A stretch of DNA of 64,000 nucleotides from Candidatus Baldrarchaeota archaeon (GTDB lineage: Archaea; Asgardarchaeota; Baldrarchaeia; Baldrarchaeales; DXJG01): positions 285,103-349,102 of the forward strand of contig DXJG01000002.1 in NCBI GenBank assembly GCA_019056805.1. The letters are read 5' to 3'. The notes under the pieces are model-generated. The model was not told where the DNA came from and made no database searches. It was given only the letters and a program-made list of their open reading frames with translations. Position numbers and translations under genes: made by a program. This document shows positions 4,395 to 39,948 of this stretch, piece after piece. Within the stretch, counting starts at the first letter, position 1. Each line of letters begins with the position of its first letter.

Positions 4395-4614
4395 CGCAAT
4401 CCCCTTTCTACTTATCAACTTCTGTTTGTATCTACCTTTTAGATAATTACCAACATCATCCTATATTTGTTAGTATTTTAACTTACAAACAAAAAACGTA
4501 TGTTAAAAGTCAAATTTTTAACAAAATGCTTCCAATGTAAATTAAGGACGAAAATGTTATTTACCATAAATAAGAATTACAGAGGCAAAACTGGAGTATT
4601 AAAAGGGGAGAAAA

Positions 4615-5919
4615 TTGCATAAAGATGCACGGAATAACGTAAATTTGACTAAACAACAAAAATCAGTTGAATTTGCAAATAGGATTCTCAAATATCTGAT
4701 CAGTCTTGGTAAAGATTTGGATTTTATTAATCACTTTTATGGATTAAATATTTCACAAAACGACATTAGAAGGTTTAAGGATTTTTTGAAAGTAATAAAA
4801 TTAAAGGCTAAAGGATATAGCCTCACCAAAACTTCCATGCTAGTTGGTGTTCCAAAAGATACGATTGCAAAATGGGTTTTTAACAAGAGTCTGCCATTCC
4901 TAGTTAGAATTTTTCAACATTATATCCAACTAGGAGATTCAAAAGATAAATTATGGTTGTCAGTTAATTCTACTAAAGGTGGATTGTTTACTGGGCCGTG
5001 GATACTGGTACCAGACAAAATTATTCACTATGACGACGTGTTATTTGTTATTAATCAACTTAAACCAATAAATGAATGTAAAATAAAACATCAATTTGAC
5101 TTAAAATCTGACAATCTGAAAAGAATGAAACCTAATTTTTTTGCATATCTACTTGGTATACTAGTTGGAGATGCCAGTAAAGTCGGTATAAAGAGGAAAC
5201 GAAGAACTACTAGAAGAATTTCACTATCTTTAACACGCACATATCCAACAAATGAACGATTGGGAGATTTTGTATCCCTATGTGCTAATTATTTAGGGTT
5301 ACGAATGACCAGAATAAAAGATGGACCAAAAGGTAGTAAAAATAAAAATAGCTTTTTTAGATGGAGTTCACAGTCTTCGCCATTAATTGAATGGATATTT
5401 AATGTCTGCTTAGGGCTTAACGATGATCAACTTACAACTTACGATGCAATTAAAGCCGATTGGATTTTAACTGCGCCTAAAACTTTTAGAATATGGTTTT
5501 TACAAGGACTAGCAGACTCTGACGGTTTCGTAGACTTACAAGCCCAGCAAATAGGAATCATAACGCAACCCAACACAGATTTGATTGAAAGAATTTTTAA
5601 GAGTTTAGGAGTTAATTCCAGAAAAAGAATTTTTAGCGGAAGACTAGAAGGTCTGATGATAAATATAAGAGATGCTTACAAACTTCCTATCTTTAACCCG
5701 TTGGTAAGAAGTTATAGATTTGAGTTACTAGAAAAACTTGTCAAAGCTAAAAGAATACGAGGACGTTGGCCAAAATGGTTAAGTGACAAAGTAGATACTT
5801 ACATAAGAAGCGGTTTGCAAGGAACTCAAATTGTAAAAAGAATCCTTAACGAGTTTAACATAGCTATCAGAACTAAACAAATTTATAAAAGACAAAAAGG
5901 GATAAGTCATGAAAAATAA
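4615..5919 (+). CDS. LAGLIDADG homing endonuclease-like protein
   Basis: This 434-residue protein has two LAGLIDADG helices. The first is LLGILVGDASKVG near residue 179 and the second is FLQGLADSDGFVD near residue 296. Both carry the acidic residue (D) needed to bind the catalytic metal. The first 110 residues include a helix-turn-helix (GYSLTKTSMLVGVPKDTIAK), and the last 50 contain another (IVKRILNEFNIAIRTKQIYK), probably DNA-binding modules. The start is TTG at 4615, seven bases after GGGGAG. Its last codons overlap the ATG of kae1 (5909), and the stop lies 35 nt before the kae1 intron. The gene is not inside the intron, and no extein-like flanks are present, so it is a free-standing ORF beside a mobile-looking insertion site. 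Confidence 0.82.
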   Translation: MHKDARNNVNLTKQQKSVEFANRILKYLISLGKDLDFINHFYGLNISQNDIRRFKDFLKVIKLKAKGYSLTKTSMLVGVPKDTIAKWVFNKSLPFLVRIFQHYIQLGDSKDKLWLSVNSTKGGLFTGPWILVPDKIIHYDDVLFVINQLKPINECKIKHQFDLKSDNLKRMKPNFFAYLLGILVGDASKVGIKRKRRTTRRISLSLTRTYPTNERLGDFVSLCANYLGLRMTRIKDGPKGSKNKNSFFRWSSQSSPLIEWIFNVCLGLNDDQLTTYDAIKADWILTAPKTFRIWFLQGLADSDGFVDLQAQQIGIITQPNTDLIERIFKSLGVNSRKRIFSGRLEGLMINIRDAYKLPIFNPLVRSYRFELLEKLVKAKRIRGRWPKWLSDKVDTYIRSGLQGTQIVKRILNEFNIAIRTKQIYKRQKGISHEK

Positions 5920-6954
5920 AAGTTTAATATGCATCGGCATCGAGAGTACCGCACTAGTTTAATCTGCGGAAATACTCTCGGTGTCGGAATCATCACCGAA
6001 GAAGGAAAAATACTAGCTAATGTTAAAGATTCTTATATACCGCCTTACGGGAAGGGGATTCATCCAGCGGAAGCTGCGAGGCATCATGCATTAAAAATGA
6101 GAGAAACTATTTTAAAAGCATTAAAACAAGCTAAAATAAAACTAGAAGATATAAATCTAATTGCTTTTGCTCAAGGACCTGGAATGGGACCATGTTTAAG
6201 AACAGGAGCTGTAGCAGCTAGAACACTAGCCTTAACACTAAATAGGCCTCTGGTAGGAGTTAATCATCTAGTAGCTCACATCGAACTTGGAAAACTAGTC
6301 ACTGGCACCACAGATCCAGTTATCCTAGTCGTAAGTGGCGGAACAACAGCCCTTGTAGCCTTAGCTGAAAACAGATATAGAATTCTAGGGGAAACCCTCG
6401 ATATAGCGATCGGAAACTGCTTTGACAGATTTGCACGAGAAGTAGGGCTACACGACCCAAAACACCCGTGGCCCGGACCCATGTTTGATAAAGTTGCTTC
6501 AAAAGGAACAAAATACATCGAACTACCCTACATAGTTAAGGGAATGGATCTAAGCTTCTCAGGACTACTCACCGCCGCTCTAAAGAAAGTTAAAGAAGGT
6601 TATAGAGTTGAAGACGTTGCATATAGTTTACAAGAAACTGCATTAGCTATGCTCACAGAAGTTACTGAAAGAGCCTTAGCACACACAGGTAAAAAGGAAC
6701 TTCTACTAACTGGTGGTTTTGCAAGGAATATTCGCTTACAAAATATGCTTAAAACAATGGTGGAAGGCAGAGATGCAACGTTCCATGTAACTCCACCCGA
6801 ATATGCCAGTGACAACGGAGCTATGATAGCTTGGCTCGGAATCCTTGCATACAAACATGGTATCACAACTAAAATAGAGGAGAGCTATGTTAGACAAAGA
6901 TGGAGAATAGAAGAGGTCGAAATAAAATGGATAAAAGAAAACCAACTAAAGTAG
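5909..6954 (+). CDS. kae1: tRNA t6A37 threonylcarbamoyltransferase Kae1, split by an intron
   Basis: Kae1 transfers the threonylcarbamoyl group to A37 of ANN-decoding tRNAs within the KEOPS complex. The main frame shows the metal-binding NHLVAHIE motif (family HxxxH), the VVSGGTTAL and LSFSGL patches and the C-terminal TGGFARN and ASDNGAMIA. The true start is ATG 5909 (MKNKSLICIGIESTA), but that frame meets TAA at 5960-5962. Removing 5955-5971 joins the exons in a CAT codon and yields GIESTAHTLGVGI, the family's first phosphate-binding loop. The spliced product is 342 residues, normal for Kae1, and has no Bud32 fusion. Starting at ATG 5929 instead would replace the conserved N-terminal strand with unrelated residues. 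yrdC overlaps the 3' end. Confidence 0.93.
5955..5971 (+). other. Predicted 17-nt BHB intron in kae1
   Basis: The sequence folds as a bulge-helix-bulge, the substrate of the archaeal splicing endonuclease. An outer helix pairs 5934-5948 with 5973-5987: 15 pairs, three of them G-U, with the inner eight all Watson-Crick. A 3-nt bulge AAA is at 5970-5972. A 4-bp helix pairs CCGC 5949-5952 with GCGG 5966-5969. A second 3-nt bulge ACT is at 5953-5955. A short inner stem pairs AG with CT around a 6-nt loop. Cuts after the second base of each bulge remove 5955-5971 and restore both frame and motif. The inner helix is only 2 bp, and a competing CCGCA/TGCGG pairing exists, so relaxed cleavage is possible. 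Confidence 0.85.
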
Positions 6955-39844: not shown

Positions 39845-39948
39845 TGGTAGCCCGGCCCGGATTCGAACCGGGGTCTCCCGTACACATTGAATTGATGTGT
39901 ATCTCGGGGTCCAGAGCCCCGAAGGCTTGACCGCTACCCCACCGGGCT
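39845..39948 (-). tRNA. tRNA-Gln(CUG) with non-canonical intron, CCA encoded
   Basis: The acceptor stem is AGCCCGG/CCGGGCT and the T arm is CCCGG-TTCGAAT-CCGGG. The anticodon stem is CGGGG/CCCCG around loop CTCTGGA, giving anticodon CUG. The discriminator A and the CCA end are encoded (39845-39848). After the anticodon stem the variable region is 32 nt instead of the 4 nt normal for this tRNA. It contains a perfect 7-bp hairpin. Removing 28 nt (39875-39902) leaves variable region AGAC and an ordinary cloverleaf. Confidence 0.93.
39875..39902 (-). other. 28-nt intron in the variable region of tRNA-Gln
   Basis: The intron holds a hairpin TACACAT-CAATTCA-ATGTGTA. On the exon side CCCG pairs with CGGG, with 3-nt bulges AGA on each strand. 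That gives a relaxed BHB (helix-bulge-helix) with cuts AG/A. The outer helix of the full motif is not clear. The site is after tRNA position 45, not the canonical 37/38. The GAGA on both sides lets the cut slide a few bases without changing the product. Confidence 0.8.

Follow-up and report, generated by a model that had tools for sequence, protein, structure and literature searches.

Results and Discussion

The kae1 locus of the window genome

The window, a stretch of 64,000 nucleotides, belongs to the genome of an Asgard archaeon of the Baldrarchaeum order, and the nearest named relative of its kae1 gene is that of Candidatus Baldrarchaeum yapensis. The kae1 gene serves tRNA modification and is near-essential. 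Here it is preceded by a gene for a putative homing endonuclease, whose 3′ end overlaps the first kae1 codons and lies 35 nt upstream of a 17-nt predicted intron (Table 1).

Table 1. Features of the kae1 locus, by window position, and intron-bearing cbf5 genes of other Asgard genomes.
Feature	Location	Strand	Evidence
Segment without blastn-level homology to two same-genus genomes, candidate co-inherited block	4526..6003	+	
Gene for 434-aa HTH and double-LAGLIDADG protein, putative freestanding homing endonuclease	4615..5919	+	Motifs, alignment
kae1 exon 1, codons 1-15 and the C of the CAT codon	5909..5954	+	Spliced translation, alignment to Kae1
RNA hairpin with BHB (predicted)	5934..5987	+	Minimum-energy fold, geometry, chance tests
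17-nt BHB intron (predicted), TAGTTTAATCTGCGGAA	5955..5971	+	Fold, helix geometry, chance tests, absence in sister genomes
kae1 exon 2 to stop codon	5972..6954	+	TIGR03722, PF00814
cbf5 with 29-32 nt BHB intron (predicted)	L228, L229, L232 (family f12); L230, L231 (family f6)		

As an earlier note on this DNA had read from the letters, and as is seen in the open reading frames, the kae1 frame that opens at ATG 5909 is closed by TAA 5960-5962, its translated start being MKNKSLICIGIESTALV, whereas the other 300-odd codons, downstream of this stop, continue in a different frame. The archaeal Kae1 model TIGR03722 matches this downstream frame alone with 464.7 bits and leaves the model's first residues unmatched; PF00814 also matches the exon 2 frame. 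In silico excision of the 17 nt, which split the His16 codon between its first and second bases, yields a single Kae1 frame of 342 amino acids with GIESTAHTLGVGI, and the claim that their removal rejoins a CAT codon is thereby borne out. The loop GIESTAHT is the nucleotide-binding loop of Kae1. Against 2ivn and other solved archaeal Kae1 proteins, the N-terminus of the spliced protein aligns from residue 6-7 with the loop ungapped.

The genome holds one copy of kae1 and no second intact one. Two other matches to the TsaD family are weak (28 and 24.7 bits, compared with 277 bits) and sit in frames of 525 and 757 amino acids. Nor was a source of the 17 nt found elsewhere in the genome, where matches with up to two mismatches occur only at kae1 itself.

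A BHB at both boundaries

The minimum-energy fold of the intron region is a BHB hairpin of -28.9 kcal/mol. Its outer helix joins 5934-5948 with 5973-5987 through 15 contiguous pairs, all four positions of the middle helix are paired (5949-5952 with 5966-5969), and the two bulges comprise three nucleotides each (5953-5955, ACU; 5970-5972, AAA). The inner helix has only 2 bp, with a 6-nt loop. The hBHBh arrangement, with 3-nt bulges and a 4-bp middle helix, is present at both boundaries, and both fold and geometry agree with the canonical BHB that the earlier note had described, including its 15-bp helix. Cuts after the second base of the bulges recover the reading frame together with the conserved residues, the conserved His codon included.

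Structures of this kind are rarely expected by chance. No other BHB site on the + strand of the window reaches 14 outer pairs, where 0.2 such sites would be expected, and the - strand holds two; at 15 or more outer pairs, order-1 Markov sequences give an expectation of 0.075 sites per 64 kb strand. In a synonymous recoding test that kept the Kae1 protein constant and drew codons by usage (n=200,000), at least 15 outer pairs arose in 15 recodings, and at least 15 outer pairs with a full middle helix in 6 (3e-5). A group I or group II catalytic core, which takes several hundred nucleotides, was not found: the intron has 17 nt, and no Rfam match in the window reached the gathering threshold.

The host also encodes the splicing endonuclease and the RtcB ligase, the former as two EndA paralogs, situated around C9:13779-14039 and C9:197884-198129 of the window genome (G000). 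Inspected by eye, the 189-aa EndA keeps the Tyr, His, and Lys expected of an active subunit, and the second paralog has no His at the matching place, as a structural subunit would. Approximately 18 of the 27 tRNA matches in the genome span 92-191 nt, being intron-bearing or long, and a canonical BHB could be fitted to several. The window itself carries a 101-nt tRNA gene at 39848-39948 on the - strand, Gln-like with anticodon CTG (by eye) and likely to contain an intron, which neither ARAGORN nor the Rfam gathering scan reported.

Close relatives lack the intron

Intronless close relatives exist: kae1 is uninterrupted in two genomes of the same genus (G001 and G002), whose Kae1 is 88% identical, and in B. 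yapensis (G003). The sister genes encode the same peptide with only 0-1 contiguous outer pairs, as opposed to 15 in the window gene. The comparison with sister genomes that the earlier note had proposed thus finds the intron and the exon pairing missing together. In a phylum-wide protein search, an intron at this first site was met in one genome only among the matches listed. The lineage of the window genome probably acquired the intron once it had diverged from the same-genus genomes.

A second intron site in kae1

The phylum-wide kae1 search covered 228 Asgard genomes. Among the matches listed, the kae1 genes of families f5, f6, and f12 are interrupted between QGPGL and GPCLR; predicted BHB introns of 13-32 nt occupy this second site in at least 11 other Asgard genomes, and their length and sequence vary between families. 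The best BHB cut falls at the identical base in all nine genes examined and restores QGPGLGPCLRT or RGPGLGPCLRT. The same split arrangement is seen on a truncated contig (G044). In L072/G184, apparently one gene, the second-site intron preserves the reading frame yet carries a stop, which fits excision and not frameshifting.

A covariance model separates the 11 intron-bearing kae1 genes (61-80 nt, E<1e-13) from the intronless ones (48 nt). In the second-site helices 97.5% of cells are paired, and the covariation score is 0.328, as compared with 0.183 for shuffles and a lower value for every slide; compensatory exon-intron pairing is present in the 11 genes at this site. With related genomes counted as independent in Fisher's test, two glycine-codon wobble positions pair in 11/11 intron-bearing but 19/55 intronless genes (p=5e-5), and a full 8-bp outer helix is found in 9/11 and 7/55, respectively (p=1.3e-5). 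Judged from these alignments, exon pairing at the second site is kept by synonymous covariation, which intronless genes do not show. In the Kae1 tree, f6 and f12 cluster and f5 stands apart, so that both origins are possible, either one old intron with losses or repeated gain.

The 80 named nearest kae1 loci give near-full-length matches, the intron-bearing L072 being among them. The contig of L072/G184 is labelled Sigynarchaeota (family f29), but its kae1 groups with f12 and carries that family's intron, through either gene transfer or misplacement of the contig. In the kae1 of L042 (G030), the stretch VSGGNT...GETLDIA is tandemly repeated in two frames, a duplication or an assembly fault. 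The kae1 break of G009 was considered as an intron and rejected: it has no BHB, and a base error is probable. As far as the gene sequences tell, kae1 introns recur in Asgard archaea and are not unique to the organism of the window.

cbf5 introns and known BHB systems

Introns in the pre-mRNA of cbf5 were reportedly described in Crenarchaeota by Watanabe in 2002. Genomes of f6 and f12 have a split cbf5 as well, with the predicted introns lying inside GTLDP, where they divide the catalytic Asp codon between its first and second bases; cbf5 is open in the window genome (G000), G001, G003, G006, and G015. Crenarchaeal cbf5 introns sit at that same catalytic-Asp position, and spliced cDNA has been observed for them (Yokobori 2009, PMC2738675). 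The Asgard cbf5 intron, being at a proven site, thus serves as a positive control for some of the lineages with a kae1 intron.

The kae1 intron resembles crenarchaeal cbf5 introns (PMC2738675) in being a short BHB intron (17 nt, with 16-44 bp in cbf5) in the catalytic-motif coding region of an RNA-modification enzyme, with predicted cuts between the second and third bulge bases and a heteromeric EndA. It differs in gene and site, in its longer and fully canonical outer helix, in being known at its site from one genome among the matches listed, and in the adjoining homing-endonuclease gene. BHB architecture and the enzymes EndA and RtcB are likewise shared with archaeal tRNA introns; here, however, the host is an mRNA, whose splicing must therefore come before translation or keep ahead of it. 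Archaeal rRNA BHB introns with internal LAGLIDADG genes also combine BHB splicing with a LAGLIDADG endonuclease, but the kae1 intron, of only 17 nt, contains no endonuclease gene; the gene stands upstream of kae1 instead. Finally, at the 5′ UTR intron of Haloferax HVO_1309 (PMC7714728) the splicing endonuclease acts on an mRNA other than cbf5, as is predicted for kae1, although the HVO_1309 BHB is in the 5′ UTR and that of kae1 in the coding frame.

The 2020 paper that added this 5′ UTR case recognised no further BHB intron in archaeal mRNAs except that of cbf5 (PMC7714728). Among the open-access papers searched, no prior report was found of a kae1/tsaD intron or of an Asgard mRNA intron.

The neighbouring LAGLIDADG gene

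The protein encoded upstream of kae1 is laid out as HTH-LAGLIDADG-LAGLIDADG-HTH and is 22-28% identical to freestanding proteins of two other Asgard families. Both motifs, YLLGILVGDAS and WFLQGLADSDG, keep their acidic residues, and D186 and D303 are invariant in an alignment of 12 sequences; the score is below the PF14528 cut-off (17.2 compared with 22.5 bits). A single-sequence AlphaFold model was unusable (pLDDT 34.8), and the profile match to I-DmoI is weak (E=0.24).

The endonuclease gene was not found in G001, G002, or G003, and the clp1-kae1 interval of G001, approximately 270 bp, contains none. In the window genome, gene and intron occur once each. Homology by blastn to the same-genus genomes ends at 4525 and restarts at 6004, and the intervening segment takes in the endonuclease gene and exon 1 as well as the intron and 32 nt at the start of exon 2. 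Relative to G001, no other 20-codon stretch of kae1 has changed as much as codons 12-31 (85% of codons, compared with a median of 45%), with synonymous changes at 12/15 as compared with 99/272 (p=0.0015, for a stretch picked after seeing the data). The endonuclease gene and the intron, together with the diverged exon sequence beside it, thus have the appearance of a single block.

No endonuclease gene was found beside the second-site kae1 introns in the flanking DNA that was read, nor any relative of this gene in viral contigs. Relatives in L151, L139, and L148 adjoin a pyruvate-carboxylase-like gene (named by eye), and in L151 the endonuclease gene is flanked on its far side by a 5′-end fragment of the carboxylase-like gene, as though the insertion had duplicated it. 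Further relatives, in L132, L134, L133, and L149, lie beside conserved genes that recur in different genomes: acyl-CoA carboxylase, and ribosomal L44E and eIF2-alpha (by eye). This latter pattern suggests a family of freestanding chromosomal endonucleases.

Probable splicing of kae1 and the origin of its intron

Together, these observations make it highly probable, at approximately 0.95, that positions 5955-5971 are an intron of the kae1 mRNA spliced by EndA and RtcB. The sequences show a broken frame, a BHB structure, a protein that excision restores, genes for the enzymes, and a consistent pattern among relatives; from these we infer cutting and ligation in the cell. In the transcript, exon 1 would pair with exon 2 over 15 bp and with the intron through the 4-bp middle helix, leaving two 3-nt bulges. 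EndA, a predicted alpha and beta heterotetramer, would cut past the second bulge base, at 5954/5955 and 5971/5972, and RtcB would ligate the exons, thereby recovering the CAT codon and the GIESTAHT loop.

Were kae1 instead decayed or mis-assembled, the 17 nt would represent a mutation or an error of sequencing or assembly. The window genome is indeed a draft of 18 contigs, and the break in G009, an Asgard kae1 without a BHB, resembles a one-base error. Yet the rest of the window gene is intact, with a protein 88% identical to that of its sisters, and it is the sole copy of a near-essential gene. That an error should create a BHB of 15 and 4 bp with frame-restoring cuts would be an extraordinary coincidence, and BHB introns are also found at another kae1 site in other lineages; we regard this explanation as very improbable. 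It is harder still to credit that the break is bypassed by programmed frameshifting or that Kae1 begins at the internal ATG 5929. While an open reading frame from ATG 5929 is present and short insertions are sometimes read via frameshifting, both readings lose the GIESTAHT loop, and the product from ATG 5929 opens with MHRHREYRTSLICGNTLGVGI, without G10, E12, and A15, which are invariant in the alignment. Moreover, a frameshift has no need of a 15-bp exon pairing and 3-nt bulges, and the stop-containing yet in-frame intron of L072/G184 also speaks against a bypass.

How the spliced kae1 intron arose is a separate question. In phages, a freestanding endonuclease mobilises an intron that has none of its own, known as collaborative homing (PMC2988022), and here too a freestanding endonuclease gene is the neighbour of an intron that lacks one and interrupts a conserved motif; unlike the phage group I case, the kae1 intron is of the BHB type and lies on an archaeal chromosome. 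By analogy, the LAGLIDADG gene may have fixed the intron by cutting intronless kae1 alleles, and we tentatively consider that the two could form one mobile unit, with collaborative homing of a minimal BHB intron, although we hold this to be less probable than not. Slightly more probable than not is an origin by chance through relaxed splicing next to an unrelated LAGLIDADG gene; this concerns the origin only and is compatible with splicing. No such gene adjoins the second-site kae1 introns in the flanks read, the endonuclease family adjoins many conserved genes without an obvious break, and cbf5 introns have been accounted for by relaxed splicing without homing (PMC2738675). Against chance proximity stand the joint absence of gene and intron from two sisters, their single occurrence here 35 nt apart, and the concentration of change in codons 12-31, at the intron. 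In place of one block, codon selection for the BHB helix in the exons, together with an unrelated endonuclease gene, is an alternative.

Implications

Asgard archaea are regarded as the lineage closest to eukaryotes. The kae1 intron and the similar tiny introns of its relatives imply that splicing of protein messages in archaea extends more widely than cbf5. With kae1 as a second host gene, interrupted at two sites, introns in protein genes that depend on the tRNA-splicing enzymes would recur in the catalytic motifs of RNA-modification enzymes. The products of both host genes, kae1 and cbf5, work on tRNA or rRNA, so that splicing would be coupled to tRNA modification and to translation. Standard gene callers break such genes, which would therefore be absent or shortened in Asgard gene catalogues. 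With an endonuclease gene next to the intron, the way in which tiny introns are gained can be tested directly. If intron and endonuclease gene are indeed one mobile unit, the locus would preserve an intermediate stage in the emergence of archaeal mobile introns, and would account for the arrival of tiny mRNA introns in the catalytic motifs of essential genes.
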